From IMG/VR virus record IMGVR_UViG_3300043435_000825, positions 1-43,183 of that record: DNA of 43,183 nucleotides; one strand, 5' to 3'. Position numbers and translations under genes: made by a program. Every line of letters starts with the position of its first letter. Position 1 is the first letter of the stretch. Below the pieces are notes generated by a model. It was given only the letters and a program-made list of their open reading frames with translations, did no database searches and had not been told where the DNA came from. Source of the stretch: a virus. Below are positions 964-12,293 of the stretch, piece by piece.

Positions 964-1713
964 ATGATTAAATTGAAATACTTAATGTTGGAGGGTTTGA
1001 AAGATAGTGTATATTTGGAACCCAAGAGTAAATCTGAAGTATTGAATTTTATTAAGCAGCATTATTTAAAGACATATCCTACGGCGGTGGCTGCTAATTA
1101 TGGTGTGATGTACAAGAAGCCAGATGGTAATGTGGATATGGTAGGAGTGATTGTTTATGGACAAACCACCAAGCCACAAGATTATGAAGAAATAGCTGTA
1201 GATGCAGAGGGCAACAGTTTATTGCAAAAGAATGAGGTATTTGAATTATTGAGATTATATTTGAAACCTGAGGCAAAACAAATACCTGAGTTAAGCAACT
1301 TGGCGTCGTATGTAATTGGTTTGGGTAATAAAAAGATTAAACAAGATTATCCCGAATTAAAAGTGGTTATTACCAGAGCTGATAGTGGACAGGGACATAC
1401 CGGATCTATATATCAAGCAACAAATGCAATTTATTTAGGCAAGAGTAAAGATACAAAACGTTTATGGGATAAAAAAGAAAACAAGTGGGTGTATAGATTA
1501 CCACAAATAAAGAAGTATGGTTTTGAAACTGGTAAAGATGCAGCAAATGATGCAAGAACCAATCCTAATAGTCCATTTGAAATAAGAACGGCTACTGGAA
1601 AACATATGTACATTTATATTTTATCCGGACAAAATTCTAGTGATGGTAAAAGAATATTGGGTGGATTGATTAAGTCAATTCAACCATATCCAAAGAAACA
1701 AAGTAACGTTTAA
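964..1713 (+). CDS. Mom-like GNAT-family protein with capsid-targeting-like leader
   Basis: 249 aa. Residues 138-152 read R-A-D-S-G-Q-G-H-T-G-S-I-Y-Q-A, followed by T-N and Y-L-G. This is the A-D...G-H-x-G-x-I-Y-x-A-x-N signature of the Mom family, GNAT-fold proteins typified by the phage Mu enzyme that modifies adenine in DNA to resist restriction. That function is inferred from the motif only. The first ten residues, MIKLKYLMLE, resemble the T4 capsid-targeting sequence, cleaved after Glu10 by the prohead protease, so the enzyme may be packaged in the head. If so, its target may be host DNA or protein at entry rather than progeny DNA. The start is fixed by the TATTTATA box 4 nt upstream. 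It stands alone between two tRNA arrays. Confidence 0.7.
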   Translation: MIKLKYLMLEGLKDSVYLEPKSKSEVLNFIKQHYLKTYPTAVAANYGVMYKKPDGNVDMVGVIVYGQTTKPQDYEEIAVDAEGNSLLQKNEVFELLRLYLKPEAKQIPELSNLASYVIGLGNKKIKQDYPELKVVITRADSGQGHTGSIYQATNAIYLGKSKDTKRLWDKKENKWVYRLPQIKKYGFETGKDAANDARTNPNSPFEIRTATGKHMYIYILSGQNSSDGKRILGGLIKSIQPYPKKQSNV

Positions 1714-1731
1714 AGTTTTTTAAAAAAGCTG

Positions 1732-1759
1732 TTGACGAAGTGATAAAGTGTGGTAAGAT
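1732..1759 (+). promoter_or_regulatory. Sigma-70-type promoter for the second tRNA array
   Basis: TTGACG at 1732-1737, 16-nt spacer, TAAGAT at 1754-1759, about 40 nt before tRNA-Lys(CTT). The stretch ATAAAGTGTGGTAAGAT closely matches the one in the promoter at 8533, so the two tRNA promoters share extended sequence. Confidence 0.65.
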
Positions 1760-1798
1760 GATTATAGTTCGTTGACAATAGTAGATACAATTTTTAAT

Positions 1799-1876
1799 GG
1801 ATGCGTAACTCAACTGGATCAGAGTATTCGGCTCTTACCCGAAAGGTTGTGGGTTCAAATCCCACCGCATCCACCA
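1799..1876 (+). tRNA. tRNA-Lys (CTT)
   Basis: Acceptor GGATGCG/CGCATCC, discriminator A, CCA. Anticodon stem TTCGG/CCGAA with loop CTCTTAC. T-arm GTGGG/CCCAC with loop TTCAAAT. Confidence 0.95.
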
Positions 1877-1884
1877 ATTTCAAT

Positions 1885-1959
1885 GGGGTTCAAGCTTTAA
1901 CGGTGAAGCAACTGGCTTTTAACCAGTAGAATACGGATCGTTACCGTAGAGCCCTACCA
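1885..1959 (+). tRNA. tRNA-Lys (TTT)
   Basis: Acceptor GGGGTTC/GAGCCCT, discriminator A, CCA. Anticodon stem ACTGG/CCAGT with loop CTTTTAA. T-arm TACGG/CCGTA with loop ATCGTTA. Confidence 0.93.
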
Positions 1960-1965
1960 TTTTTT

Positions 1966-2041
1966 GGGGTATAAGAGGAACAGCAGACTCATTTCCCTGT
2001 CACGGAAAAGATAGTGGGGGCAGCACCCATATACCTCGCCA
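1966..2041 (+). tRNA. tRNA-Asp (GTC)
   Basis: Acceptor GGGGTAT/ATACCTC, discriminator G, CCA. Anticodon stem TTTCC/GGAAA with loop CTGTCAC. The T-loop is GGCAGCA, an unusual form nearly shared with tRNA-Ser(TGA) at 9135. Confidence 0.9.
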
Positions 2042-2048
2042 TTTCAAT

Positions 2049-2122
2049 TGGCTATTAGCTCAATAGTAGAGCATTCGACTGATAATCGAAAGAACACGGG
2101 GCGGTACCGTGATAGCCAACCA
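2049..2122 (+). tRNA. tRNA-Ile (GAT)
   Basis: Acceptor TGGCTAT/ATAGCCA, discriminator A, CCA. Anticodon stem TTCGA/TCGAA with loop CTGATAA. The T-loop is GGCGGTA. Confidence 0.92.
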
Positions 2123-2125
2123 TTT

Positions 2126-2193
2126 TTGTTAGTAAGTGTTGGGTTCAATTCCCTTTACTCAGTGATCACTGGTGAGAACATAACTACTAACAA
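2126..2193 (+). ncRNA. Folded element with T-arm-like hairpin and a perfect 12-bp palindrome
   Basis: The ends pair over 8 bp (TTGTTAGT/ACTAACAA). A T-arm-like GGG-TTCAATT-CCC lies near the 5' side, followed by CAGTGATCACTG (2160-2171), a perfect palindrome. No CCA and no anticodon arm. It may be a decayed or rearranged tRNA; the palindrome could also be a protein-binding site. Confidence 0.35.
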
Positions 2194-2200
2194 ATTCAAT

Positions 2201-2277
2201 GCACTCGTAGCTCAATTGGATAGAGCAACTCGTTTCTACCGAGAAGGTTGCAGGTTCAAGTCCTGCCGGGTGTACCA
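2201..2277 (+). tRNA. tRNA-Arg (TCT)
   Basis: Acceptor GCACTCG/CGGGTGT, discriminator A, CCA. Anticodon stem ACTCG/CGAGA with loop TTTCTAC. T-arm GCAGG/CCTGC. It reads AGA, a codon frequent in this AT-rich DNA. Confidence 0.95.
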
Positions 2278-2279
2278 TT

Positions 2280-3062
2280 TTAGAATCTGAATGCTTTTTT
2301 GAAGGCATTGCCTGTTTTTTTGGCACCATCATTAATTGCATTACCTGCATTATTTACAACATTAGTTGTTTCTTTGACGGCGGTATTTGCTACATTGGTA
2401 GTTTGTTGAACTACTGGTTGAGTTGCTTTTGCGACTGTATTAACATCTTGTACAACTTTATTTGTATCAATTGTAGTACTTACATCTACTTTTACACCAA
2501 CTAATACTGCAACGTCACCACTTACACCAACGGTAACTTTACCTTTGTCCATAGTGGCTTGAGCGGAACCACCACCACCAACTTGTTCACCTACACTAAC
2601 TCCTGAACCTGCGGTAACTGATGCGCCTCTTACATTTGCTGTACCTGAAGCGTCAACACCTACAGCAGTACCAATAGAACCTTCTGCACCAACTGCGACA
2701 CCTTTGTCACCAGCTTGAACATTTGCGGATGCTTTTGTACCACTGACTGCGTAAGCGTCTGCAGTACCTGCAACACCTACACCATTACTTTGTACTTTAC
2801 CATCTACAACAATGTGAGCTTCTGTACCGCTACTATAACTTGCGTTTGCGTAGACGTTGTTACCATCAAGTCCACCGGCAGCGGATGCTTCTGTACCAGT
2901 TTTAACTGATGTTTCAACACCTATTGATGCGTTTTTATTTCCTACACTTGCGCCTGCAGAAGCTTCTGCGGTATTTGTATAAGAAACACTTGCTGAATTT
3001 TTATCAGATGTTGCGGTAGCAGAATTGTTTATTTGAGCGGATGTATTTGTTTGTGTAGACAT
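2280..3062 (-). CDS. Low-complexity Ala/Gly/Ser/Thr/Val-rich protein
   Basis: 260 aa, no family recognised. Residues 1-190 alternate small polar and hydrophobic residues (runs such as A-S-A-G-A-S-V-G), a pattern typical of beta-solenoid or fibrous proteins. The C-terminal 60 residues, rich in T-N-V and A-K, look like an amphipathic helix and end in F-K-K-A-F-R-F. There is no signal peptide or transmembrane segment. The gene converges on the tRNA-Arg array (3 nt between its stop and the tRNA end) and is divergent from the gene at 3167. It could be a virion or surface-adhesion protein; the sequence does not decide. Confidence 0.75.
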   Translation of the reverse strand: MSTQTNTSAQINNSATATSDKNSASVSYTNTAEASAGASVGNKNASIGVETSVKTGTEASAAGGLDGNNVYANASYSSGTEAHIVVDGKVQSNGVGVAGTADAYAVSGTKASANVQAGDKGVAVGAEGSIGTAVGVDASGTANVRGASVTAGSGVSVGEQVGGGGSAQATMDKGKVTVGVSGDVAVLVGVKVDVSTTIDTNKVVQDVNTVAKATQPVVQQTTNVANTAVKETTNVVNNAGNAINDGAKKTGNAFKKAFRF

Positions 3063-3155
3063 ATTTGATATATATGTTGGGGTAGATAAAAAATAGAATT
3101 AAAATGATGTTGTAGGTGACAGTATCATTTTTACAATGTTTTATATTAAATTATA

Positions 3156-3163
3156 TATTTATA
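3156..3163 (+). promoter_or_regulatory. TATTTATA box, putative late promoter
   Basis: TATTTATA followed by GAT and the ATG at 3167; the string TATTTATAGATATG recurs at 25898. No Shine-Dalgarno. It lies in the 104-bp gap between divergent genes. Confidence 0.55.
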
Positions 3164-3166
3164 GAT

Positions 3167-3646
3167 ATGATTAAGTTAAAAGAACTTCTAAATGAGATTG
3201 AAGAGGCGTGTTGGGATACTCATAAACAAATTGGTATGAAGTCAAAAGGTGGGAGAATGGTACCAAATTGTGTTAGAAAAGAAGCTTTAGAAGATGGCGA
3301 CAATATAGAAGAATATGATGTTGAAAGTGAACAAGATGTAAAAGAATTTGTTCAATTCATGCGAGAATATAATCAACCATTATGTGAAGCCGAATATCAG
3401 GGTCGTAAAGTGAGCCTTGGTAAACGAATGCAAGGTGATGTCAAGAAATTTAAAGTATATGTTAAAAATCCTAAAGGAAAAGTGGTTAAGGTAAATTTTG
3501 GATTTGGTGGATCTTCAGCTAAAGGTAAAAGAATGACCATAAAAAAGAATAATCCAGCACGTAGAAAAAACTTTAGAGCGAGACATAATTGTGATAATCC
3601 TGGTCCACGTACTAAAGCGAGATATTGGTCATGTAGGGCTTGGTAA
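3167..3646 (+). CDS. Capsid-targeted-type basic protein with R-x-R-H-N-C...Y-W-S-C module
   Basis: 159 aa. The start at 3167, not the earlier in-frame ATG at 3116, is chosen because the TATTTATA box lies 3 nt upstream and the protein then opens MIKLKELLNE, a T4-like capsid-targeting leader with Glu10. Next comes C-W-D-T-H-K-Q-I-G-M-K-S-K-G-G with P-N-C-V, a motif I know from many T4-like phage proteins. The last 60 residues (ARRKNFRARHNC to the final W) form a conserved module of unknown function with two Cys and many Arg/Lys, possibly binding nucleic acid or metal. A basic protein packed with DNA fits the leader. Function unknown. Confidence 0.75.
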   Translation: MIKLKELLNEIEEACWDTHKQIGMKSKGGRMVPNCVRKEALEDGDNIEEYDVESEQDVKEFVQFMREYNQPLCEAEYQGRKVSLGKRMQGDVKKFKVYVKNPKGKVVKVNFGFGGSSAKGKRMTIKKNNPARRKNFRARHNCDNPGPRTKARYWSCRAW

Positions 3647-3713
3647 TTTTGATATTATATTTTAAAAAAAATATATAAATGTTGGTGGATTATATATATA
3701 ATAAAATAAATAT

Positions 3714-4517
3714 ATGGAATCTACAAACTCTCCCCAAACATTTTCGCTTACTAATAAAAAGTTATTATATGTTATAATTGCTGTAATTGTATTAATAACT
3801 TTTGGATTATATACATTATTTAGTTCATTGAATATAGATAATAAAGCTTTAACTAAGAAAGTTGTTAACCAGACGGAGATTGTTGTAAATCAAAGTTTAT
3901 TGATTACCAATTTAAATCAAAAGAATGCGGAGTTATCTGTATTATTGAAGAGTTATGATAATAAGTTGAGTATATTGTATACTAATATGACTCAATTAAA
4001 TAGTATTACTGAACAGTTGAAAGTATCATCTGATGAAAAAGATGTAAAGATTAAAGATTTGACCCAAGAAAAATCTGCACTTGAATCTGATTTAAAGTCG
4101 TTACGTAATACGCTTGTTAATATGACCAAAGAGATTGTAGATTTAGGTGATGAACTTAAAGTTGCGAAGACTGATAAAGATCAAAATGAGCTTGTAGCTA
4201 AGATTGAAATGCTTACAAAAGAAAGAGATTTTTTGAAGAACAAGATAGCGGAGTATGAAAAGATCATAGAAGAGTTGAAGAAAGAAAATGCTCTTTTGAC
4301 TCAAAATTTGAGATTAAATCTGAAAAAAGATGGATATGAATTTAAGAACAAATTGGGAGAGTGGCCAAAAGGTGCAGAGGTATTGATGAGGATGTCTAAT
4401 CGAAGTGTTCACATTAAGTTAGACAAAGATAATCAACACAAAGAAGAAAAAACCGAAGTAAAACCTAAAAGAATAGGAATTTGGAAACGTATTTTTGGTT
4501 CGGGTGAAACTGAATGA
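3714..4517 (+). CDS. Membrane-anchored coiled-coil protein
   Basis: 267 aa. One transmembrane helix at about residues 18-40 (L-L-Y-V-I-I-A-V-I-V-L). Residues 45-205 are a long coiled coil rich in K, E, L and N. A short basic tail of about 60 residues follows, with W-K-R-I-F-G near the end. No enzymatic motif. It ends 6 nt before tRNA-Thr, so the two tRNAs downstream are probably on the same transcript. A spanin, an exclusion protein or a membrane scaffold are all possible; I do not recognise it. Confidence 0.75.
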   Translation: MESTNSPQTFSLTNKKLLYVIIAVIVLITFGLYTLFSSLNIDNKALTKKVVNQTEIVVNQSLLITNLNQKNAELSVLLKSYDNKLSILYTNMTQLNSITEQLKVSSDEKDVKIKDLTQEKSALESDLKSLRNTLVNMTKEIVDLGDELKVAKTDKDQNELVAKIEMLTKERDFLKNKIAEYEKIIEELKKENALLTQNLRLNLKKDGYEFKNKLGEWPKGAEVLMRMSNRSVHIKLDKDNQHKEEKTEVKPKRIGIWKRIFGSGETE

Positions 4518-4523
4518 TTTAAC

Positions 4524-4598
4524 GCCTATATAGCTTAAAGGTAAAGCATCAATTTCGTAAATTGATAGATATTGCATCAAAACCAATTATAGGCTCCA
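4524..4598 (+). tRNA. tRNA-Thr (CGT)
   Basis: Acceptor GCCTATA/TATAGGC, discriminator T, CCA. Anticodon stem TCAAT/ATTGA with loop TTCGTAA. The T-stem has a C-C mismatch and the T-loop is ATCAAAA. A CGT anticodon reads only ACG, a rare choice in AT-rich DNA. Confidence 0.88.
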
Positions 4599-4606
4599 TT
4601 TTTAAA

Positions 4607-4697
4607 GCACGATGACAGAGCTAGAGAACTGAGATGTCTGCAAAACATCGTTGTATGAAAGTACATATGCAAGGAGCATAACCTTGATCGTGCTCCA
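4607..4697 (+). tRNA. tRNA-Cys (GCA) with long variable arm
   Basis: Acceptor GCACGAT/ATCGTGC, discriminator T (the CysRS identity base), CCA. Anticodon stem GATGT/ACATC with loop CTGCAAA. The variable region is 20 nt and can form a hairpin TGTA/TACA, whereas tRNA-Cys normally has 4-5 nt there. T-arm CAAGG/CCTTG with loop AGCATAA. Confidence 0.88.
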
Positions 4698-4706
4698 TTT
4701 TTTATA

Positions 4707-4714
4707 TATTTATT
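4707..4714 (+). promoter_or_regulatory. TATTTATT box, putative late promoter
   Basis: TATTTATT ends 5 nt before the ATG at 4720 and starts 10 nt after the CCA of tRNA-Cys. No Shine-Dalgarno. Confidence 0.5.
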
Positions 4715-4719
4715 ACTAT

Positions 4720-5190
4720 ATGATATTATTAAAAGATTTGTTAAACGAAGTACAGCCTGAGTTGACTGTATACAGAGGTGTTAATCCTACGTATGGTGAT
4801 ATAGGGTTGGGTATCAACAGCACCAAGCCAGGTGACAAATTAGTGGCTACACTGGGAGCAAATCATACAAATAATATAGAAGTAGCTAAACGATTTGGTA
4901 AACAAATAATAACTACTAAGTTAAAAGGACCTGGCTTAGAGTTACCACATTATAATGATATAATTAATTTATATAAACAGTATGAAAGTATGTTACCGAC
5001 TGGACTTGCTGGTAAAATCAGATATAGTAATGGTCAAGAGCAATTAGATTTGATACAATTAGCTGGTAAAGAATTACGTAAGATATTGAGTAAAAAATAT
5101 GGATATATTAAGAGTCCACTCGCGATAAGTGATGCTAGTTATTTAACTCAAAAAGGATTAACAGGAGATTTGTATATACCGCTTAGATAA
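4720..5190 (+). CDS. Putative capsid-targeted ADP-ribosyltransferase-like protein
   Basis: 156 aa. The in-frame ATG at 4651 lies inside tRNA-Cys and is rejected; ATG 4720 follows the TATTTATT box. The protein opens MILLKDLLNE (leader-like, Glu10). L-T-V-Y-R-G at 15-20 is the beta-strand Arg motif of arginine-type mono-ADP-ribosyltransferases, and A-N-H-T-N-N-I-E-V-A-K-R-F-G fits the S/T-x-x-x-x-A-x-x-F-G strand-helix that follows in these folds. The catalytic Glu motif is not clear. T4 Alt is a known precedent: a packaged ADP-ribosyltransferase that modifies host RNA polymerase on entry. Family membership is an inference from short motifs. Confidence 0.55.
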   Translation: MILLKDLLNEVQPELTVYRGVNPTYGDIGLGINSTKPGDKLVATLGANHTNNIEVAKRFGKQIITTKLKGPGLELPHYNDIINLYKQYESMLPTGLAGKIRYSNGQEQLDLIQLAGKELRKILSKKYGYIKSPLAISDASYLTQKGLTGDLYIPLR

Positions 5191-5196
5191 TCATAC

Positions 5197-5204
5197 TATT
5201 TATT
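5197..5204 (+). promoter_or_regulatory. TATTTATT box, putative late promoter
   Basis: TATTTATT ends 5 nt before the ATG of the small gene at 5210. Confidence 0.45.
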
Positions 5205-5209
5205 TGTGT

Positions 5210-5380
5210 ATGAACGAATTAAATCTCTATCAAAAGTTTCTTCAATTAAAAAATGAGATAGAAATACACAAATGGATAGAGAGTGAAAAAAGAGGGACTG
5301 ATATAGGATTTGAGACCGCGTTATTGGATTGGATGTCTAAACATAGAAATGGTTGGGGTGACAGTATAAAAGAAAAATAA
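5210..5380 (+). CDS. Small acidic/aromatic protein, 56 aa
   Basis: It begins M-N-E-L-N-L-Y-Q-K-F and contains H-K-W-I-E-S-E-K-R-G-T-D-I-G-F and L-L-D-W-M-S-K-H-R-N-G-W. The dense Trp/His pattern and the TATTTATT box 5 nt upstream support a real gene. I recall similar short ORFs in marine T4-like phages but cannot name a family. It lies between two genes with capsid-leader-like N termini but lacks one itself. Confidence 0.65.
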   Translation: MNELNLYQKFLQLKNEIEIHKWIESEKRGTDIGFETALLDWMSKHRNGWGDSIKEK

Positions 5381-5403
5381 ATGTAGCTAATTAATAATAT
5401 TTA

Positions 5404-5411
5404 TATTTATA
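5404..5411 (+). promoter_or_regulatory. TATTTATA box, putative late promoter
   Basis: TATTTATA ends 4 nt before the ATG at 5416, with no Shine-Dalgarno. Confidence 0.55.
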
Positions 5412-5415
5412 ACAT

Positions 5416-5832
5416 ATGACTAAAAATGATTTAAAGAAGTTAATTAAAAGTTTGACAAGAGAGGTATTAAACGAAGATTTTGATAACGCGGCTGAAGTAG
5501 AGAGTGATAAGTTGACTGCTACTCTTTCAGAAGATGATAAAGTAGCGGATATCGCAGATTTAGAGAAATTGTTAAAAAATCCGGATCCGAGTAGAGTAAA
5601 AGATTATGGTTCATTAGAAAACTATAAGAAAATGTTGATGGGTAAAATTGATCGATTAAAAAAGCAAAAAAATGAAAGCGGCGATCCTTTTAGAGACATT
5701 GTGAAGAAGTATGCTAGTCTTTATAGAGACAGTGAACTTTCACGTAGAGAGAAGGAAGATTATTTTAAATGGTTACAAACACATCAGCCTGACAAACTCA
5801 AAAAACTTGTAAATAAGCTCAAAAAGAAGTAA
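5416..5832 (+). CDS. Charged helical protein with possible extended capsid leader
   Basis: 138 aa, about a third Lys/Glu/Asp, predicted largely helical. The N terminus M-T-K-N-D-L-K-K-L-I-K-S-L-T-R-E-V-L-N-E ends in V-L-N-E at residue 20, like the L-L-N-E leaders of neighbouring genes but twice as long. No domain recognised. It is the last gene before a strong terminator at 5860. A packaged internal protein is the best guess from context. Confidence 0.7.
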   Translation: MTKNDLKKLIKSLTREVLNEDFDNAAEVESDKLTATLSEDDKVADIADLEKLLKNPDPSRVKDYGSLENYKKMLMGKIDRLKKQKNESGDPFRDIVKKYASLYRDSELSRREKEDYFKWLQTHQPDKLKKLVNKLKKK

Positions 5833-5859
5833 AAAATACATTTAAATTTAAACAAGTGA

Positions 5860-5890
5860 AGCGATTAATGTAAAAATTAATCGCTTTATT
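5860..5890 (+). terminator. Rho-independent terminator
   Basis: Stem AGCGATTAAT/ATTAATCGCT (10 bp), loop GTAAAA, then TTATTTTTTATT. It ends the 5416 transcript and is followed at once by a new promoter. Confidence 0.9.
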
Positions 5891-5895
5891 TTTTA

Positions 5896-5923
5896 TTGAC
5901 AATCAACCGTAAACAAGTATAAT
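5896..5923 (+). promoter_or_regulatory. Sigma-70-type promoter
   Basis: TTGACA at 5896-5901, 16-nt spacer, TATAAT at 5918-5923: consensus hexamers. It starts transcription just upstream of the gene at 5935 and should be read by host polymerase early in infection. Confidence 0.8.
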
Positions 5924-5934
5924 AAAAGTATAGT

Positions 5935-6255
5935 ATGAATGAACTAAGTAAAATTGATATGGCGAATTTAGTCTTTAGTAATGACAAGAAGGCTAAGATC
6001 AAGGATGTATTGTGTACAAAATATGGTGCGACTGATGTGCAATATAGAGATCTATCATATGGTATTTGTATTGACGTTGTAGGCACTGATAGTTTTAGAT
6101 TTGTAAAGAACGCGATACTAGAAACATTAGACGTTCACGAAGAAACGTTGTCTATTTTGGGTGAAAGTAAACGAAGTTTAAAGGCTTCTTACGTTTATTT
6201 GCCTGAAAAAGATAAGATTTTGAACAAACGTCTCAAGAAGGTAAAATCAGCTTGA
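5935..6255 (+). CDS. Hypothetical protein, probably early
   Basis: 106 aa. No family recognised. An alpha/beta pattern with a middle section G-I-C-I-D-V-V-G-T-D-S-F-R-F and a very basic C terminus (K-R-L-K-K-V-K). It is isolated by a terminator upstream and has its own consensus promoter 11 nt before the ATG, so it is expressed apart from the TATTTATA-driven neighbours. A small host-takeover or nucleic-acid-binding role is conceivable but not shown. Confidence 0.75.
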   Translation: MNELSKIDMANLVFSNDKKAKIKDVLCTKYGATDVQYRDLSYGICIDVVGTDSFRFVKNAILETLDVHEETLSILGESKRSLKASYVYLPEKDKILNKRLKKVKSA

Positions 6256-6372: not shown

Positions 6373-6412
6373 GGGTAGTAAACATAAACAAAAAAATAAA
6401 GGATAGTTAAAT

Positions 6413-7111
6413 ATGAAGAAAGTATTAGTATTATTGTCAGTATTGGCCGCTTTGGCTGTATCTGCAGGCGACACCTCAAACATCTCAGTTGAAGCTGGGT
6501 ATAACAACCAATACATCGTCAATGGTGTATCTCGTTCTGAAGGTGCAGCATTTGTTGGTGTAGGTGCTGTAAAGAGTCTGAAGTATGCAGATGTATACTT
6601 GGGTGGTACTCTATTGGCTAATGGTGACCTAGATCAGTCACATTGGACTCTGGGTGCTGGCAAGGAAGTAAACGTATGGAAGGATGTATTTTCCGCACGA
6701 TTGGATACAACTGTAACTCGTCACCAAGCAGGTAACTTTGGTATTCCAAATAGTACTGAATTTGGTGTTAAATTGGCTTTGCCAAATAAGTATGTAACAC
6801 CATATCTTCGTGGATTTTATGATGTAGACTTGAAACAAAGTGGTGTGTTTGTTGGCGCAGAACGTGCTCAAAAACTTCCATTTGGATTCGTTGTAACTCC
6901 TGCTGTTGAATATGGTAAGGTAGAAGACTATACAGCTGTAAATGCAAAGTTGTCAGTGACTCGTCCTTTTGAAACTTCATTTGGTGTATTGACTCCATTT
7001 GCAAGTGCTGGATGGTATGACAACAATTTTAATGCTACTAAATATAATTGGGCTACCCGTGAACTTAGTGGCGATGTAGTATATTCCGGCGGTTTGAGAT
7101 TGACTTTCTAA
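6413..7111 (+). CDS. Secreted outer-membrane beta-barrel protein
   Basis: 232 aa. A cleavable signal peptide at 1-18 (MKKVLVLLSVLAALAVSA, cut before or after Gly-19). The mature part alternates polar and hydrophobic residues in strands (G-Y-N-N-Q-Y-I-V-N-G-V-S-R-S, D-V-Y-L-G-G-T-L) and ends L-R-L-T-F, the terminal Phe signal for BAM-mediated outer-membrane insertion. Length suits a barrel of about 8-12 strands, and the N-terminal strand resembles the Y-x-x-R-G-V-S porin-like families. It has a good Shine-Dalgarno (AAAGGA) and its own terminator, and its base composition is less AT-rich than its neighbours, all suggesting acquisition from a bacterium. Possible roles are altering host permeability or masking the receptor. 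Confidence 0.85.
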   Translation: MKKVLVLLSVLAALAVSAGDTSNISVEAGYNNQYIVNGVSRSEGAAFVGVGAVKSLKYADVYLGGTLLANGDLDQSHWTLGAGKEVNVWKDVFSARLDTTVTRHQAGNFGIPNSTEFGVKLALPNKYVTPYLRGFYDVDLKQSGVFVGAERAQKLPFGFVVTPAVEYGKVEDYTAVNAKLSVTRPFETSFGVLTPFASAGWYDNNFNATKYNWATRELSGDVVYSGGLRLTF

Positions 7112-7137
7112 TCCGACCAGAAATAGTGTATCTGTAT

Positions 7138-7165: not shown

Positions 7166-7176
7166 TTTTTGATATC

Positions 7177-7184: not shown

Positions 7185-7204
7185 ATTAAAGAAAGGTTTA
7201 TTTT

Positions 7205-8176
7205 ATGTCATCAACAAGTGGATCAAATGGTAGTAACCGAATAGGTACTTCCTCATTAAAAACAATAGTACTTCAATCGAAATCTGTAGTAACTAAATTT
7301 ATATCTAATACATTGTTACCAAAAGTGATACGTAGTACAATCGGTGGTAGCAGTGGAATAGGTGGCAGTAGCGGAACGGGTGGTAGTAGTGGATCTTCTG
7401 ATGGTATTCGTACTAACTGGGCATCGAGTATCAAATCCACACTTATAAAAATGATGGCGGCCAGCAAAGACCGCAGTTTATTCAGTGCGTTTATCCAATC
7501 TACTTTTTCTTGGGTTCGAAATTCTGCATCTTGGGTGATATCTTATAAATGGACAGGTACTGCGGCCGGTATAAATGGCCTAGGTGGTGTTGGAGGTGGA
7601 ACTCTTATCACTGATAAGCATGTCTTATTGTCTGCACACGTTCCATATTTGCCAAATTCAGAAATCTTTTTTGTTAACGATAACAATGTGACATTCAAAT
7701 ACATCATCATCAAGATCGACAAGATTGATGGAAGTGATATTGCAATTGGAACGCTTGATCGATCAATTGATAGTAGTTTGAAGATATATTCAGTGTTACC
7801 CGACAACTGGCAACAATATATCAAAACTGAAATTAATAGTGCAATGGGTGTGCAATTTGTAACTTTACGATTACCTGTGTTGTTCCTTAATCAAGACAAA
7901 CAAGTTTCAATAGGAGATATAACGCGATTGATTGATGCAGTTGCTGATGTAGAATCTTCAGTATTTGGTACATCACAATCGTATTATGAAACACAACGAG
8001 GTGGTGATTCTGGAAATCCAATATTTGTACAGGTGGGCAGTGAACTGGCACTGTTGGGCGCATGGTATAAAGTTGGATCTTTTGCTTGGTTAATCAGTAG
8101 AAAAACTCAAATCGAGTCTATTATTGGCCAAAAACTGAACGTAATTAATATGACCGGATTTGAGAAGGTATCTTGA
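7205..8176 (+). CDS. Trypsin-like (chymotrypsin-fold) serine protease
   Basis: 323 aa. The triad is visible: His145 in L-L-S-A-H-V (after G-G-G-T-L-I-T), Asp178 in G-S-D-I-A-I-G, and Ser269 in R-G-G-D-S-G-N-P-I-F, the chymotrypsin-family G-D-S-G-x-P box. Residues 1-70 are a Ser/Gly/Thr-rich extension with repeats of G-G-S-S-G and no signal peptide, so the enzyme is probably cytoplasmic or virion-bound. Residues 95-115 (W-V-R-N-S-A-S-W-V-I-S-Y-K-W) may pack against the fold. It follows the terminator of the outer-membrane gene and has its own TATTTATA box and a Shine-Dalgarno. Targets are unknown. Confidence 0.85.
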   Translation: MSSTSGSNGSNRIGTSSLKTIVLQSKSVVTKFISNTLLPKVIRSTIGGSSGIGGSSGTGGSSGSSDGIRTNWASSIKSTLIKMMAASKDRSLFSAFIQSTFSWVRNSASWVISYKWTGTAAGINGLGGVGGGTLITDKHVLLSAHVPYLPNSEIFFVNDNNVTFKYIIIKIDKIDGSDIAIGTLDRSIDSSLKIYSVLPDNWQQYIKTEINSAMGVQFVTLRLPVLFLNQDKQVSIGDITRLIDAVADVESSVFGTSQSYYETQRGGDSGNPIFVQVGSELALLGAWYKVGSFAWLISRKTQIESIIGQKLNVINMTGFEKVS

Positions 8177-8216
8177 AAGTTAATAAAGTTTATTTGAAAA
8201 TTATTAAATAATTTTG

Positions 8217-8245
8217 TTGATTTTGAATTTTAAACACTATATATA
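8217..8245 (+). promoter_or_regulatory. Possible sigma-70-type promoter
   Basis: TTGATT at 8217-8222, 17-nt spacer, TATATA at 8240-8245, 13 nt before the ATG at 8259. AT-rich context lowers confidence. Confidence 0.4.
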
Positions 8246-8258
8246 GTATATTCAATTT

Positions 8259-8459
8259 ATGGTAATAGAAAAAACATATAAACTGGTAATTCAAGGTAGA
8301 AGTTTTACACTAACGGAAGCTGAGATTAAAGCTTTATATCTTTCATTGAAAGATTCTTTTAAAGAAGTTGATGTTACGGTTCCACAGACTGTTACGGTTT
8401 CAGAACCGGTTACGGTTTCAGAACCTAGTCAAGCCAGTCAACTTCCATCCGAAAGTTGA
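8259..8459 (+). CDS. Small protein with V-T-V-S-E-P repeats
   Basis: 66 aa. Residues 1-40 form a beta-beta-helix-like stretch (Y-K-L-V-I-Q-G-R-S-F-T-L-T-E-A-E-I-K-A-L). The tail repeats V-T-V-S-E-P and is Ser/Pro/Gln-rich, probably disordered. A clear terminator follows. Function unknown. Confidence 0.65.
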   Translation: MVIEKTYKLVIQGRSFTLTEAEIKALYLSLKDSFKEVDVTVPQTVTVSEPVTVSEPSQASQLPSES

Positions 8460-8488
8460 AGACGAGGTTGTTTACTAAAAAATATACA

Positions 8489-8522
8489 ACCCGTCACTTT
8501 TAAAAAGAATGACGGGTTTTTA
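8489..8522 (+). terminator. Rho-independent terminator
   Basis: Stem ACCCGTCA/TGACGGGT with an A/T-rich loop, then TTTTTAATTTT. It separates the 8259 gene from the tRNA promoter. Confidence 0.85.
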
Positions 8523-8532
8523 ATTTTGATGG

Positions 8533-8560
8533 TTGACAATTTTATAAAGTATGGTAAATT
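8533..8560 (+). promoter_or_regulatory. Sigma-70-type promoter for the third tRNA array
   Basis: TTGACA at 8533-8538, 16-nt spacer, TAAATT at 8555-8560. The spacer and -10 region (ATAAAGTATGGTAAATT) closely match the promoter at 1732. Confidence 0.7.
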
Positions 8561-8570
8561 AGAAATATAA

Positions 8571-8690
8571 CGAACGGGGTTGAAACTCTATCTGATGTCC
8601 CCAACATAAGTTAAAACATTTGATCGGTCACTGGGTGTTATGCTGAAATACAGAACCCATCTGGCGATAATGACATAAAGTATATAACAA
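8571..8690 (+). ncRNA. Structured leader RNA before tRNA-Val
   Basis: About 140 nt separate the promoter from the first tRNA. They hold GGGG (8576-8579) able to pair with CCCC near 8600, and a hairpin TGGGT/ACCCA (8632-8659) inside a GTCA/TGAC helix (8627-8674). CGGTCAC at 8625 repeats the first seven bases of tRNA-Pro (8783), so part may be a tRNA remnant. No reading frame of note. Confidence 0.35.
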
Positions 8691-8699
8691 TTTTTAAAT

Positions 8700-8775
8700 G
8701 GGTGGTTAGCTCAGTTGATAGAGCATTTGCTTTACACGCAAAATGTCATAGGTTTAAATCCTATACCACCTACCA
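8700..8775 (+). tRNA. tRNA-Val (TAC)
   Basis: Acceptor GGGTGGT/ACCACCT, discriminator A, CCA. D-arm GCTC/GAGC. Anticodon stem TTTGC/GCAAA with loop TTTACAC. T-arm ATAGG/CCTAT. Confidence 0.95.
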
Positions 8776-8782
8776 TTTTAAT

Positions 8783-8856
8783 CGGTCACAAGTGTTACGG
8801 TAGCATACATGATTTGGGTTCATGTGGAGTCAGTTCAATTCTGACGTGGCCGACCA
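8783..8856 (+). tRNA. tRNA-Pro (TGG)
   Basis: Acceptor CGGTCAC/GTGGCCG, discriminator A, CCA. Anticodon stem CATGA/TCATG with loop TTTGGGT. T-arm GTCAG/CTGAC with loop TTCAATT. Confidence 0.93.
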
Positions 8857-8863
8857 TTTTATT

Positions 8864-8947
8864 GGGCATATGATGTAATGGCAGCCATGCGAGTTTTAGA
8901 AGCTCGTGGAGAAATCCGTGGGGGTTCAAGTCCCTCTATGCCCACCA
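8864..8947 (+). tRNA. tRNA-Leu (TAG)
   Basis: Acceptor GGGCATA/TATGCCC, discriminator A, CCA. Anticodon stem CGAGT/GCTCG with loop TTTAGAA. A variable hairpin GGA-GAAA-TCC makes it class II, as normal for Leu. Confidence 0.92.
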
Positions 8948-8955
8948 ATTTCAAT

Positions 8956-9033
8956 GGTTACGTAGACCAACTGGAAGGAGTCGTCTATCTCAAAAATAGA
9001 ATAGTGCTGGTTCGAATCCAGTCGTAACTACCA
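8956..9033 (+). tRNA. tRNA with CAA anticodon on a short-variable-arm body (Leu?)
   Basis: Acceptor GGTTACG/CGTAACT, discriminator A, CCA. D-arm GAC/GTC with GG in the loop. Anticodon stem TCTAT/ATAGA with loop CTCAAAA, anticodon CAA. The variable region is only 5 nt, whereas Leu tRNAs have a long arm. The acceptor and flanks (TACGTAG, GTCGTA) resemble elongator tRNA-Met, whose loop would read CTCATAA. Charging by LeuRS is therefore not certain. Confidence 0.85.
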
Positions 9034-9040
9034 ATTTAAC

Positions 9041-9125
9041 GGGTGTGTGGATAAGGGAAACTGGAACAACCGCAATACTTAAAATATTGTATCCTATGTA
9101 GGTTCGAATCCTACCACACCTACCA
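9041..9125 (+). tRNA. tRNA-Leu (TAA), atypical D-arm
   Basis: Acceptor GGGTGTG/CACACCT, discriminator A, CCA. Anticodon stem CAATA/TATTG with loop CTTAAAA. T-arm GTAGG/CCTAC with loop TTCGAAT. The D region is 25 nt with at most a 2-bp stem, and the variable region is 8 nt, short for Leu. Confidence 0.85.
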
Positions 9126-9134
9126 AATTTATAC

Positions 9135-9226
9135 GGTTGATAGGCAGATATAAGCTGGCTGCATCAGTCTTGAAAACTGAGTTCGTTGAAAGACGAAGGT
9201 CCGGGCAGTACGGACATCAACCGCCA
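9135..9226 (+). tRNA. tRNA-Ser (TGA)
   Basis: Acceptor GGTTGAT/ATCAACC, discriminator G, CCA. Anticodon stem TCAGT/ACTGA with loop CTTGAAA. A long variable arm (TTCGTTGAAAGACGAA) marks Ser. T-arm GTCCG/CGGAC with loop GGCAGTA. Confidence 0.92.
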
Positions 9227-9233
9227 TTTTAAT

Positions 9234-9298
9234 ACAACTCCACTTGACAATGGAGCCGAGGACTGATAGTATCGTCCCTTGAAGAAATCGGAGTTTGT
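9234..9298 (+). ncRNA. Folded CCA-less element between Ser tRNAs
   Basis: Outer helix ACA-ACTCC/GGAGT-TGT with one bulged T; inner hairpin GGAC-GAT/ATC-GTCC with a bulge. It also contains TTGACA (9244) and TAGTAT (9267) 17 nt apart, so it could instead hold a promoter for the downstream tRNAs. No anticodon arm or CCA. Confidence 0.3.
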
Positions 9299-9310
9299 CA
9301 AAGATTTTAC

Positions 9311-9401
9311 GGTGAGGTGTCTGAGTGGTCTAAAGAGACAGTTTGCTAAACTGTTGTGGACTAAAAAACCACCGAGGGTTCGAATCCCTCCCTCACCGCC
9401 A
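9311..9401 (+). tRNA. tRNA-Ser (GCT)
   Basis: Acceptor GGTGAGG/CCTCACC, discriminator G, CCA. Anticodon stem ACAGT/ACTGT with loop TTGCTAA. Long variable arm. T-arm loop TTCGAAT. Confidence 0.95.
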
Positions 9402-9407
9402 TTTTTT

Positions 9408-9483
9408 GCGTGTGTAACTCAGTTGGTAGAGTACGAGTTTTCCAAACTTGATGTCGTGAGTTCAAACCTCACCACACGCTCCA
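9408..9483 (+). tRNA. tRNA-Gly (TCC)
   Basis: Acceptor GCGTGTG/CACACGC, discriminator T, CCA. Anticodon stem CGAGT/ACTTG with loop TTTCCAA. T-arm GTGAG/CTCAC. Confidence 0.95.
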
Positions 9484-9494
9484 TTTTTAGTAAT

Positions 9495-9568
9495 TGGGGA
9501 TTTGCATAATGGTAGTGCGGCAGACTTTGAATCTGCTTGTGGTGGTTCGATTCCATCATCCCCAACCA
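9495..9568 (+). tRNA. tRNA-Gln (TTG)
   Basis: Acceptor TGGGGAT/ATCCCCA, discriminator A, CCA. Anticodon stem GCAGA/TCTGC with loop CTTTGAA. T-loop TTCGATT. Confidence 0.95.
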
Positions 9569-9600
9569 TTTCCAATAAAAATTTTAGATATATATTATAC

Positions 9601-10293
9601 ATGAAAGACATTTATATACAAATAGGGGCAAATATTGGATATGATTATTTCTTTAATTTAATAAAAGAATTAAAGGAACCATGTAAAATAATTTTAATAG
9701 AACCTAATCCAAATTTAATTGAACGCTTAACTGATTGTTATAAAGATTTAAATAAAATTCATGATATAAATATATTAAATGTTGGTATATCTTACGATTC
9801 TAATAATGTATTGCATACTTATCGTGGAGATGATACAGCTGTATTGTCTAGTATTTTAAATAGAAAATCACATCCACATGTGATTGATAACATAAAATTT
9901 TCAGTGATGACTTTTGACGAGGTGTGTAATATTTACAATTGTAAAAATATTAAATTATTGTGCATAGATACTGAAGGATATGATTATTGGATCTTAAAAA
10001 ATATTGATATTAAAAAATATAATATAGAAACCATAGAATGCGAATATTGGGCGCATGATATAGATTGTACAGAAGAAATTAAAACTGGCCCAAAATTTTT
10101 TGAAAATGAGATTTTACCAAAATATTCTAAATTTTATAATATCTCTAAATGTACCAGAGATTCAATGGATACTCACACATTTATAAAAATAGTTGAAAAG
10201 TCGTTTATAATTAATAATCTTTTAAAGAATATAAATTCTATTAAGAATATGTTCAAGAAGATTATCTTCAACTTTCTAAATATAGAGAATTAA
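9601..10293 (+). CDS. FkbM-type SAM-dependent methyltransferase
   Basis: 230 aa from ATG 9601; the longer frame opening at 9502 runs back into tRNA-Gln and is rejected. SAM-binding motif I is I-Q-I-G-A-N-I-G-Y-D near the start; motif II ends L-I-E-P-N-P. V-M-T-F-D-E-V-C followed by I-K-L-L-C-I-D-T-E-G-Y-D is the C-I-D-T-E-G block of the FkbM (Methyltransf_21) family, usually O-methylating sugars. The C-terminal 40 residues are an A/T-rich basic helix. Composition is strikingly AT-rich, and the gene is wedged between tRNA-Gln and a structured RNA. With the putative glycosyltransferase at 10678 it could decorate a phage or host glycan. Confidence 0.85.
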   Translation: MKDIYIQIGANIGYDYFFNLIKELKEPCKIILIEPNPNLIERLTDCYKDLNKIHDINILNVGISYDSNNVLHTYRGDDTAVLSSILNRKSHPHVIDNIKFSVMTFDEVCNIYNCKNIKLLCIDTEGYDYWILKNIDIKKYNIETIECEYWAHDIDCTEEIKTGPKFFENEILPKYSKFYNISKCTRDSMDTHTFIKIVEKSFIINNLLKNINSIKNMFKKIIFNFLNIEN

Positions 10294-10322
10294 AAATTAT
10301 GGTATCAATTTGCAATGATGTG

Positions 10323-10402
10323 CGTGTTGGGTGGAAACGGCCAACAGCGTGAGGGACACGATACACCCCTGTATGTCTGACCCGGACGAATCTGATCCAG
10401 AT
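10323..10402 (+). ncRNA. GC-rich multi-hairpin RNA element
   Basis: Three hairpins in about 80 nt: CGTGT/ACACG enclosing TTGG/CCAA (10323-10360), ATACA/TGTAT with loop CCCC (10361-10374), and ATCTG/CAGAT with loop ATC (10390-10402). It is much richer in G and C than the genes beside it, as expected for a structured RNA. I do not match it to a known riboswitch or ribozyme. No CCA and no tRNA arms. Confidence 0.45.
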
Positions 10403-10424
10403 AGGATAGGGTTGAATTTTTGAT

Positions 10425-10453
10425 TTGACTTATACTATATATTGGTGTAAGAT
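10425..10453 (+). promoter_or_regulatory. Sigma-70-type promoter for tRNA-Ala/Gly
   Basis: TTGACT at 10425-10430, 17-nt spacer, TAAGAT at 10448-10453, 9 nt before tRNA-Ala. The -10 TAAGAT matches the promoter at 1732. Confidence 0.65.
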
Positions 10454-10461
10454 TTTTAAAT

Positions 10462-10536
10462 GGGCTTGTGGTGCTAGTGGTAACACGACCGGTTTGCATC
10501 CGGTAATCTCCAGTTCGACCCTGGACAGGTCCACCA
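10462..10536 (+). tRNA. tRNA-Ala (TGC)
   Basis: Acceptor GGGCTTG/CAGGTCC with the G3-U70 pair that identifies Ala, discriminator A, CCA. Anticodon stem ACCGG/CCGGT with loop TTTGCAT. T-arm TCCAG/CTGGA. Confidence 0.95.
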
Positions 10537-10588
10537 TTTTAAATTAGTGTATATTGATTAGTTTCAACTATATATTAATATTCAGAGA

Positions 10589-10662
10589 GCGGGTATGATG
10601 TAGTGGTAGCCTTCGACCTTGCCAAGGTTGATGTGAGGGTTCGATTCCCTCTACCCGCTCCA
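10589..10662 (+). tRNA. tRNA-Gly (GCC)
   Basis: Acceptor GCGGGTA/TACCCGC, discriminator T, CCA. Anticodon stem CGACC/GGTTG with loop TTGCCAA. T-loop TTCGATT. Confidence 0.94.
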
Positions 10663-10667
10663 ATTTT

Positions 10668-10675
10668 TATAAATA
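10668..10675 (+). promoter_or_regulatory. TATAAATA box, T4-type late promoter motif
   Basis: TATAAATA, identical to the T4 late promoter core, ends 2 nt before the ATG at 10678. It is the only exact T4-form box I noted beside a start; other genes carry TATTTATA. Confidence 0.4.
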
Positions 10676-10677
10676 AT

Positions 10678-11424
10678 ATGTTATCTGATATTGGAGCTGT
10701 CGCGATTGTTTCTGAGGAACAAAAACAATCGGCATATGAAATGATTCGATCATTTAGAGAATTTAATCCGAATAGTAGCATAGTAATATATGCTGATGGT
10801 AAGGTAGATAATATAAATGACATTGCTCATACATTTAAGTGTGTATTAATTCAACATTCTGAAAAAATTGGGTATCCAGCGTCATATGATTTTGAAATAC
10901 CTTTAAAATATACGTATAGATTTTTAATGTGTTCTTTTTTAATTAGAGAAAAATATTTTATAAATCTTGAACCGGACTGTTTAGTGAAAGATACTATTAA
11001 ATTAGCAACTGATACAGAACTTAATATGTTAAGTTCTAATTTAAATTTAAACGATCTGCAGTGGAGTTTTTATATGAGTGGCGACGATAAATTGAGAAAC
11101 GAGATATTACCTCGTATGTTTGAGTTTTATCAAAAAAACAATGTATGTATTAATCCACTTTTTGATTTAACCGTAGGAGGGGGTGGTTTTATATATAAAA
11201 CAAAGTTTGCTAAAACGATCATTAATGATTGGAAAAATTATATTAAATACTCATATGAAATTAAATCTATATATAGTGGGTATAATCAAAGATGGTATTG
11301 GGATTATTTATTATCTTTAATTTTTCCAATTTATATGAACGGAACTAGTTATAGACATAATGAAAATTTTAATTTAAATATGTCTGATAGGATTATACAT
11401 CCTTACAAAAATTTTTACGTTTAG
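10678..11424 (+). CDS. Putative glycosyltransferase
   Basis: 248 aa from ATG 10678; the longer frame opening at 10603 lies inside tRNA-Gly. It starts G-A-V-A-I-V-S-E-E-Q, a first beta-strand typical of GT-A folds. Y-F-I-N-L-E-P-D-C-L-V fits the acidic metal/sugar-nucleotide motif (here E-P-D in place of D-x-D), and L-T-V-G-G-G-G-F-I-Y resembles the acceptor-side glycine loop, followed by W-Y-W-D-Y. Very AT-rich like the methyltransferase at 9601, hinting that both came as foreign cargo beside tRNAs. Family assignment is tentative. Confidence 0.6.
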   Translation: MLSDIGAVAIVSEEQKQSAYEMIRSFREFNPNSSIVIYADGKVDNINDIAHTFKCVLIQHSEKIGYPASYDFEIPLKYTYRFLMCSFLIREKYFINLEPDCLVKDTIKLATDTELNMLSSNLNLNDLQWSFYMSGDDKLRNEILPRMFEFYQKNNVCINPLFDLTVGGGGFIYKTKFAKTIINDWKNYIKYSYEIKSIYSGYNQRWYWDYLLSLIFPIYMNGTSYRHNENFNLNMSDRIIHPYKNFYV

Positions 11425-11451
11425 TATTTATTTAGTTCTTTAAAATTTTAT

Positions 11452-11837
11452 GGGGATGTGTAGTTTCGACATAGATAAATATCTATTGTTAGGCACGTAG
11501 AGGATAATAGTTGGCCTCTTTAAAAGTTCTATTGAAAATTAACTGCTGAAGATAACGTAGTTAGCTATGACTTCTCTTATGATGACGTTGTAGCCCTTGC
11601 AGCCTAAGTTGTTGCACATTCAATACAATGAAGTCTGATAGTTGTATTGGGTGTAAATTATTGGACTGGGCCAAATATTTGATTTGCGTAAATGGCTGAG
11701 AAAATGGTAAATCTTAAGGGTAATATTTTTAGATATTTTTAATTATTACTTCCCAACAATTTAAAATATATAAACGTGTAGTCTGGCAGTAATAATTTTT
11801 TATGGACGCGGGGTGCGACTCCCCGCCATCTCCACCA
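11452..11837 (+). ncRNA. ssrA: tmRNA (transfer-messenger RNA)
   Basis: 386 nt. The 5' end GGGGATG pairs with CATCTCC, giving the Ala-type G3-U70 pair, discriminator A, encoded CCA. TAGTTTCGAC is the conserved D-loop region; the T-arm is GCGGGG, loop TGCGACT, CCCCGC. The tag frame runs 11545-11607 from GCT to TAA and encodes AEDNVVSYDFSYDDVVALAA, ending in the A-L-A-A degron read by ClpXP. tmRNA rescues stalled ribosomes with SmpB; no SmpB gene lies in this window, so host SmpB would be needed. The 20-residue tag is longer than typical 8-15. A TATTTATT lies about 20 nt upstream (11425-11432). Confidence 0.93.
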
Positions 11838-11869
11838 TTTTTATTCAAAGTTTATATTTTGAATATGTA

Positions 11870-11877
11870 TATTTATA
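11870..11877 (+). promoter_or_regulatory. TATTTATA box, putative late promoter
   Basis: TATTTATA ends 2 nt before ATG 11880 (5 nt before ATG 11883). No Shine-Dalgarno. Confidence 0.55.
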
Positions 11878-11879
11878 TA

Positions 11880-12293
11880 ATGATGAAAAGATATAGTTTA
11901 TTATACGAATCAAGCATATATGATTATCTAGTATGGGAACCGACTGGAAAATTGCAATATATTGCGGATGAATTGGATAAAATTCCAATCGACAGTTCTA
12001 AACTTTATAGAGGAATGTCTGAGAAAGAATATAATATTTTAAAGAGTACTGGTAGAGTTACGTCGAAAGGTAAGGGAAATACCAGAAACATCGTGGGTAG
12101 TTATCTAGCGAGTGATTTTAAATTGGCAGCTAGGTTTGCGTTGGTCAATTACAGAGACGCTGGAGAAGGTATAGTGGTTGTAATAGATAAAAGTAAGTTA
12201 CCTGATTTAAAAAATGTAGATCCAGGCAATTATGTTACTAGTTATATACCGATAGAATCAGTAACAAAAATTATAGATTTAAAAAAGTTATGA
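11880..12293 (+). CDS. Putative capsid-targeted ADP-ribosyltransferase
   Basis: 137 aa. A longer frame opening at 11802 lies in the tmRNA and is rejected. With ATG 11880 the protein opens MMKRYSLLYE, placing Glu at residue 10 as in the other leader-bearing genes. K-L-Y-R-G-M at 41-46 supplies the ART-fold Arg (R44); S-Y-L-A-S-D-F-K-L-A-A-R-F-A at 74-87 is the S/T-x-D-x-x-x-A-x-x-F-A strand-helix; I-P-I-E-S-V-T-K-I-I near the end fits the final strand and may carry a catalytic Glu. Only about 60 residues are shared in layout with the 4720 protein. Its stop overlaps the ATG of the next gene. Packaging and function are inference. Confidence 0.6.
   Translation: MMKRYSLLYESSIYDYLVWEPTGKLQYIADELDKIPIDSSKLYRGMSEKEYNILKSTGRVTSKGKGNTRNIVGSYLASDFKLAARFALVNYRDAGEGIVVVIDKSKLPDLKNVDPGNYVTSYIPIESVTKIIDLKKL

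Follow-up and report, generated by a model that had tools for sequence, protein, structure and literature searches.

Why should four proteins with unrelated bodies begin in nearly the same way? The question is raised by the IMG/VR virus record IMGVR_UViG_3300043435_000825, whose whole stretch of 43,183 bases was analysed and is called the window here, and in which 15 tRNA genes surround the genes concerned. A preliminary description of this DNA had proposed that the products at 964, 3167, 4720 and 11880 share a leader like that of the internal proteins of phage T4, which directs them into the prohead and is removed by a gp21-type protease after Glu10. It is very probable that these openings are T4-type capsid-targeting propeptides, cut by a gp21-type protease and carried as a detachable tag by unrelated bodies, and that the 3167 product and its kin are head polyproteins. 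The hydrophobic leader residues would bind the internal core during prohead assembly and so draw the protein in, after which the gp21-type serine protease would cut behind L/I/V/M-x-Glu and the short leader would leave. The mature body would stay in the head with the DNA and would probably be ejected with it. Through recombination, the leader would be passed between unrelated bodies as a removable address label. A site of this kind would also divide modules within the 3167 product and its relatives, where the protease would free a basic, presumably DNA-binding C-terminal protein. Visible in the sequence are the tag, a gp21-type protease gene carried by the same phage, a like site in gp23, the portability of the tag and the way in which the site tracks phage type; from these we infer that the proteins are targeted, cut, packaged and ejected, as well as what each cargo does.

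The leaders MIKLKYLMLE (964..993), MIKLKELLNE (3167..3196) and MILLKDLLNE (4720..4749), all on the plus strand, each start from the first ATG of their open reading frame (ORF), with an in-frame GTG or TTG also present further upstream for 3167 and 4720. Positions 4 and 7 are Leu in all of them, position 8 is Leu or Met and position 10 is Glu; the three therefore show the T4-type feature of hydrophobic residues at 4, 7 and 8 together with Glu10, after which the cut is predicted. For the T4 protein IPIII, a passage in PMC9026906 states that the first ten residues suffice for targeting, which depends mainly on positions 4 and 7, and that processing depends on positions 8 and 10. Nine of the ten loci of the 4720 family were read (one was partial); all nine keep the Glu, P2 can be N, K, I, S or T, and the positions behind the Glu are hypervariable.

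The four N-termini lie where the preliminary description placed them, except that the start of the fourth has to be moved. Homologues of this gene were found at 41 loci, 39 of which were read, the other two being partial. The first Met of MMKRYSLLYE is a Met in only 15 of the 39 loci by our own count and otherwise V, L, I, Q, A, K or D, whereas the second Met is kept in all 39; in one locus, a stop lies directly before it. For this reason, the gene most likely starts at 11883, one codon after 11880, with the leader-like MKRYSLLYE (11883..11909, plus strand). The earlier statement that Glu stands exactly at residue 10 consequently holds for three of the four proteins. The 11883 product lacks the T4-type feature, since its Glu is at 9 and Arg at residue 3 takes the place of residue 4, but its leader may still work in the same manner.

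A prohead protease is present in the same phage. The 83,454-base record G003 matches window bases 648-43183 at 99.94% identity and was therefore taken as the same phage; judged by its capsid protein, it is closest in GenBank to Microcystis phage Mel-JY01 (50.0%) and Flavobacterium phage immuto (49.7%). A search of the window itself with PF03420 found nothing. The head cluster of G003 holds a portal (phrog_213, E 3.3e-64), a major head protein (phrog_138, E 3.1e-68) and a head maturation protease (phrog_207, E 9.3e-53; Peptidase_S77, E 5.3e-30), so the objection that the phage might have no prohead protease is answered. Relatives of 964 or 3167 led to 10 records, 7 of which have Peptidase_S77, and two of these seven, G001 and G002, are the same genome. 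The phage also appears to use the proposed site in its own capsid: gp23 of G003 is probably cut at QLLDE|ATTTG (the bar marks the predicted cut), and LLDE|A, LLSE|A, IVSE|A and LINE|A occupy the equivalent place in four relatives. The corresponding T4 gp23 site is FLTE|A. According to the T4 section of PMC9026906, gp21 cuts after L/I-X-E.

The pattern is more frequent than expected by chance. A strict regular expression, M..[LIVMFY]..[LIVMFYW][LIVMF].E, was scored on the first-ATG N-termini of genes called with a home-made caller, which undercalls (198 genes in T4). In G003, it fits 5 of 69 N-termini compared with 0 of 294 internal Met residues, and none of 20,000 composition-keeping shuffles reached five, which bears out the enrichment over shuffled N-termini. 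The window part alone gives 3 of 37, reached by 2 of 20,000 shuffles, although this count is post hoc. Further leader genes exist elsewhere in the genome: the part of G003 outside the window holds two among 32 (reached by 24 of 20,000 shuffles), namely MIRLNNILNE (G003 20981-22015) and MISLTDLLLE (G003 21999-22772). A search of GenBank phages with the protein of the former gave no match. The same expression fits 3 of 80 N-termini against 2 of 419 internal Mets in G1, 3 of 161 against 1 of 691 in G6, and 4 of 186 against 0 of 766 in immuto; G1 is not independent evidence because it is close kin. Leaders of immuto include MIKLIDLLTE (gene 24569-24994) and MISIYNILKE (103366-103806). As a control, it fits 4 of 198 called genes in T4 (IPII, IPIII, gp24 and 61.1) and 1 of 855 internal Mets. 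IPII and IPIII are annotated as internal virion proteins and gp24 as gp21-cleaved. IPI escapes the expression because its propeptide is longer, and Alt, whose start lies one codon upstream, is caught only with an extended pattern. An ORF at G3 59411-59623 (plus strand) also fits, but it is antisense to a tail gene, is not a called gene and was left out.

The tag is also portable. When a DNA pattern for M[I/M]KLK.LLNE was scanned over IMG/VR, it was found in at least 120 stretches, while the residue-reversed pattern was found in none. The matches listed number 122, and 106 of them begin at the first ATG of an ORF with 40 residues or more; of the dropped matches, 13 have an upstream in-frame ATG and 4 have an ORF below 40 residues, one belonging to both groups. 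Among the matches listed, the 106 kept ones head 90 distinct bodies in 33 clusters, the largest with 39, where clusters were built by single-linkage BLASTP at E 1e-3 and distant kinship between them is possible. By eye, some of these bodies look like NUDIX or P-loop proteins. In G6, four tagged genes stand together at 126873-130133, one of them with two in-frame ATGs upstream.

The product of 3167 extends the use of such sites into the interior of the chain. Behind its leader lies an acidic middle piece (residues 11-74, 3197..3388, plus strand; 8 K+R and 16 D+E in 64 residues), which ends in QPLCE and whose residues 12-39 match PHROG families of unknown function. It is followed by the basic C-terminal domain AEYQGRKV...RYWSCRAW, assigned to phrog_7595 (residues 75-159, 3389..3643, plus strand; 25 K+R and 3 D+E in 85 residues). 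The relatives, of which at least 599 were confirmed and the best 80, with 75 distinct ORFs, were analysed, are modular as well. In all 75, the C-terminal domain is preceded by [LIVMF]xE, with only V, L, I or M at P3, always E at P1, A in 74 and S in 1 at P1', and 13 different residues at P2. At other joints, LxE|KNCPTD occurs in 22 of 22 cases and E|DL.KWF in 17 of 17, where most of the P3 residues are initiator Mets of chains opening with 'MNE' or 'MKE'. The CW.GY module has a Glu 0-2 residues upstream in 35 of 37 cases and a hydrophobic P3 in 28. Not every joint fits, since W[ST].KYK is preceded by Glu in 10 of 13 cases and by a hydrophobic P3 in only 1. Overall, [LIVMF]xE[AGS] occurs 198 times in 19,068 residues, 75 of these being the C-terminal site, whereas 200 shuffles gave 56 on average and 74 at most. 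The ratio in four whole-genome protein sets used as a control is 0.98-1.19. Because such sites also lie between modules within the chain, the 3167 product and its relatives are read as head polyproteins. Module border and site coincide again in the G003 protein MIRLNNILNEVISE|GGVGGHMAHPFD, since its homologue inside a 1,073-residue G6 protein follows LIME|GG.

The occurrence of the site before the phrog_7595 domain depends on the type of phage. The domain was found in 26 records, 16 of which were read; the remaining ten are three immuto and three Melnitz near-copies, an HTVC008M copy, Aegir (identical to Kolga over the domain), CRP-3 and CRP-235. In all four T4-like lineages read, the domain follows a candidate site: LTE|A in C48C1, LEE|A in HTVC008M, MME|S in Melnitz-3 and LDE|G in immuto (gp099). 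The C48C1 protein moreover starts with MKKFKQYIDE|G, which is close to the T4 leader MKTYQEFIAE. In 12 small phages (32-61 kb), the domain is free-standing and begins at or near the initiator Met, for example as MAKYKGRTV in HTVC026P; 11 of these 12 have no such site before it, [LIVMF]xE|[ASG] occurs in 0 of 12, and CRP-2 has a short extension without a site. Three of the four T4-like lineages, C48C1, HTVC008M and immuto, were searched for Peptidase_S77 and all three have it, and it was not found in Kolga, CRP-902 and CRP-2, the three small phages searched; the 12 are otherwise taken as non-T4-like from their size and record names. In the Roseobacter phage CRP-6 (L334:1240-1929, minus strand), a phrog_7595-type domain is fused to an XkdF-type protease (Peptidase_S78_2, E 7.2e-18), which supports a head role of the 3167 C-terminal domain. 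Rather than an effector, the 3167 product resembles a precursor from which a very basic head protein would be cleaved, and its C-terminal piece would be a DNA-binding head protein released from the acidic precursor part.

Two longer chains were noticed among these sequences. L070:1174-3342 and L034:508-2037 encode 510-723 residues with 9-10 [LIVMF]xE[AGSY] sites, including ESVNE|G, ESVNE|A and ESINE|Y, and look like strings of small modules. When six long polyproteins were searched with Pfam, one gave DUF5872 below the cut-off, another gave a weak K-box match, and there was nothing else.

The predicted cargo comprises a Mom-like DNA-modification protein, the basic 85-residue protein, a protein with a predicted ADP-ribosyltransferase (ART)-like fold and one unknown. 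Judged by its sequence, the 964 product is a Mom-family protein (residues 11-249, 994..1713, plus strand): it scores 86.9 bits with PF25680 against a cut-off of 27.1 (E 1.9e-24) and matches phrog_1384 at E 1.9e-28; it would modify adenine in the phage DNA. In six other phages, the Mom homologues lack the leader, and by our own count on the alignment five of them start at equivalents of residues 8-13 of the 964 product. Mom enzymes occur in jumbo phages, typically fused to nuclease domains, according to part of PMC7824862; the term 'capsid targeting' is absent from that part of the article. The 4720 body (residues 11-156, 4750..5190, plus strand) has no PHROG, Pfam or GenBank-phage match, and its model, built from eight sequences, reaches a predicted local distance difference test (pLDDT) value of 44. 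The 11883 body (11910..12293, plus strand) has an ART-like predicted fold with a pLDDT of 71, its leader region being modelled at low confidence. The top VIA rows of this model are Tpt1/KptA, a tRNA 2'-phosphotransferase (Z 8.1, 82 residues, root-mean-square deviation 2.9), and the best Foldseek E-value is 2.1e-2. Neither PHROG at E 0.001 nor Pfam at E 0.01 gave a match to an ART family, and the likeness of the model is one of resemblance, not of membership. A functional precedent by analogy is T4 Alt, an ART packaged in the head as described in a section of PMC5512222. Kinship between the 4720 and 11883 products was considered because of a shared YRG stretch seen by eye and was rejected, since a profile comparison shows no similarity. 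The bodies are thus unrelated, as originally described, so far as they were tested: Mom-like in 964, phrog_7595 in the C-terminal half of 3167, and no profile similarity between 4720 and 11883.

Several observations weigh against a T4-type leader cut by a gp21-type protease. Residue 11 is I, V or G in the products of 964, 3167 and 4720, while the relevant passage of PMC9026906 mentions Glu-Ala for gp22. Among the 106 pattern matches listed, the commonest residue 11 is E (22). In the 11883 product, the residues following Glu are conserved too, so this site is not diagnostic. The more distant S77 carrier G5 has 0 strict matches in 198 genes compared with 1 of 829 internal Mets, and without the residue-4 condition the excess is not significant in G6 (3/161 vs 7/691, p 0.29) or G5 (2/198 vs 3/829, p 0.25) and is marginal in immuto (p 0.051). 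In CRP-6, one of the small phages, LEE|D stands no more than one residue from where the site would be expected. The Mom protein of P12002L carries an unrelated N-terminal extension of similar length, and packaging is not a rule for Mom because the Straboviridae phage Phynn bears S77 and yet has a Mom-like protein without a leader. Peptidase_S77 was missed in 3 of the 10 records reached through 964 or 3167 (75-126 kb), and only 5 of 16 tagged contigs carry it, 11 being without. The misses in the tagged contigs are likely caused by contig truncation, since gp23 was found in seven of the 16, namely the five S77 carriers and two in which it lies 2.7 and 4.4 kb from the contig end, and was found neither in the other nine nor in three further contigs searched alongside. 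The core of the proposal, a T4-like leader, is upheld by most of the sequence tests, namely the protease, the gp23 site, the extra leader genes, the portability and the comparison with non-T4-like phages. It is qualified by the Glu not always standing at 10, the poorer fit of the 11880 member and the lack of an excess in G5, and the injected effectors of the preliminary description are putative.

Among the alternatives, the one that deserves most attention, though it is rather unlikely, is that the proteins are packaged and cut as proposed and act only inside the head, in the core, in DNA condensation or in assembly, instead of being delivered as effectors. The strongly basic composition of the 3167 C-terminal domain and its fusion to a protease in CRP-6 point in this direction, but a Mom-like enzyme, a predicted ART-like fold and bodies that by eye resemble NUDIX or P-loop proteins are hard to read as structural. 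It is quite improbable that the opening is an uncut N-terminal helix recruiting the proteins to a membrane, a host factor or a replication site. The leader is short and amphipathic by eye; however, the invariant Glu with a hydrophobic P3 and a free P2 is the protease motif, resembles the phage's own gp23 site and returns at internal module joints. A chance or compositional resemblance among Leu/Lys-rich N-termini is extremely improbable: only four genes were involved, they were picked by eye, the Glu of one is off position and the distant relative G5 has no excess, but composition-keeping shuffles, held-out genes, the internal-Met control and the empty reversed-pattern scan all speak against it.

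A further possibility, which we regard as very improbable, is that the leader belongs to a recombining 5' gene cassette of late promoter, start and first codons that serves expression, the peptide itself being functionless. It is suggested by a TATTTATA box that lies on the plus strand 4 nt before the 964 start (952..959), 3 nt before the 3167 start (3156..3163) and 5 nt before the 11883 start (11870..11877), while TATTTATT, with one mismatch to TATTTATA, lies 5 nt before the 4720 start (4707..4714). The box also stands upstream of another start in the window (5404-5411), and it occurs 3-5 nt before the first ATG in 11 of 69 G003 genes and 14 of 80 G1 genes. If TATTTATA is a late promoter, its proximity to the starts could mean that the mRNAs are leaderless. 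However, with up to one mismatch the box also precedes 17 of 64 genes without a leader compared with 3 of 5 with one, and the other two of the five G003 leader genes have no box. In addition, the amino acids differ between close relatives (MIKLKYLMLE, MIKLKELILE) and yet the pattern is kept.

The set of proteins injected by a phage is difficult to establish unless its virions can be purified. Provided that the tag has been read correctly, uncultured phages could be screened for candidate injected proteins by means of a short pattern and the presence of a prohead protease gene; the candidates here are a DNA-modification enzyme, an ART-like protein and numerous bodies of no known family. The portable tag and the L/I/V/M-x-E|A/G/S joints suggest, as a reading that we slightly favour, that the prohead protease of uncultured T4-like phages doubles as a polyprotein processor, with modules being shuffled, packaged whole, cut and ejected; injected proteins could then become predictable from sequence alone across many uncultured phages. 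If true, this architecture adds a use of the prohead protease; a description of it as a polyprotein processor did not turn up in searches of the open-licence PubMed Central literature.

Other features were observed beside these genes. Further candidate sites are VLNE20|D in the product of 5416..5832 (plus strand), with ILVE|D in G1, and FLNE17|A, retained in the relative G1, in a collagen-repeat protein (12845..14680, minus strand), which has two long GTT/GTA collagen-like repeats and in which FLNE|A is N-terminal. A 409-residue phrog_1392 protein (G003 4093-5322) begins with MKLIDLLTE|V, nearly equal to MKLIDILTE|V of the 4720 homologue in L150. In immuto, MQFLAGIITE|S (L134, 25097) and MQKLAGIITE|S (L136, 111711) could be a second leader type, and MQ(F/K)LAGIITE resembles RFQKLAGIKK, with which the gp22-like scaffold of this phage ends at its C-terminus (L110:11615-12700). 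The window protein at 7205-8176 has a GDSGNP stretch and spaced His/Asp and by eye resembles a trypsin-type serine protease; that at 6413-7111 has a signal-peptide-like start and a body that by eye resembles an outer-membrane protein. Neither has a PHROG match. G1 94389-99193 is a long self-similar repeat region, with many overlapping matches between two copies of one genome.

The closest known counterparts are the T4 internal proteins. IPII and IPIII have a short N-terminal propeptide with hydrophobic residues at 4, 7 and 8 and Glu10, as in the leaders of this phage; a gp21-type protease accompanies both these leaders and T4 IPI-IPIII and Alt; and the leader genes lie near tRNA genes, like T4 ipI-ipIII. 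T4-type internal proteins have diverse bodies and only the targeting sequence is conserved, as stated in an excerpt of PMC3012670. The consensus here is MI[KRS]L..[LI]L.E compared with MKTYQEFIAE in T4, and unlike T4 the cargo includes a Mom-like protein and multi-site polyproteins, in a lineage near immuto (major capsid protein identity 49.7%). By eye, the nearest leader among the T4 matches is the propeptide MAKINELLRE|STTTN of the gp21-cleaved gp24, which unlike the leader proteins here is a capsid vertex protein and not cargo. Ejection proteins of giant phages are cut after Glu, as is predicted here, while the phiKZ motif differs. We know of no portable 10-residue tag in the giant phages phiKZ and SPN3US. 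Many of their head-packaged proteins are cut after Glu, with several sites per propeptide region, and the phiKZ motif is S/A-X-E (giant-phage passages of PMC9026906). The polyvalent proteins of phages and conjugative elements likewise deliver several activities with the DNA, and are themselves likened to polyproteins in the portion of PMC5512222 consulted. Polyvalent proteins consist of larger domains released by embedded peptidases, whereas the small modules here are apparently split at prohead-protease sites.

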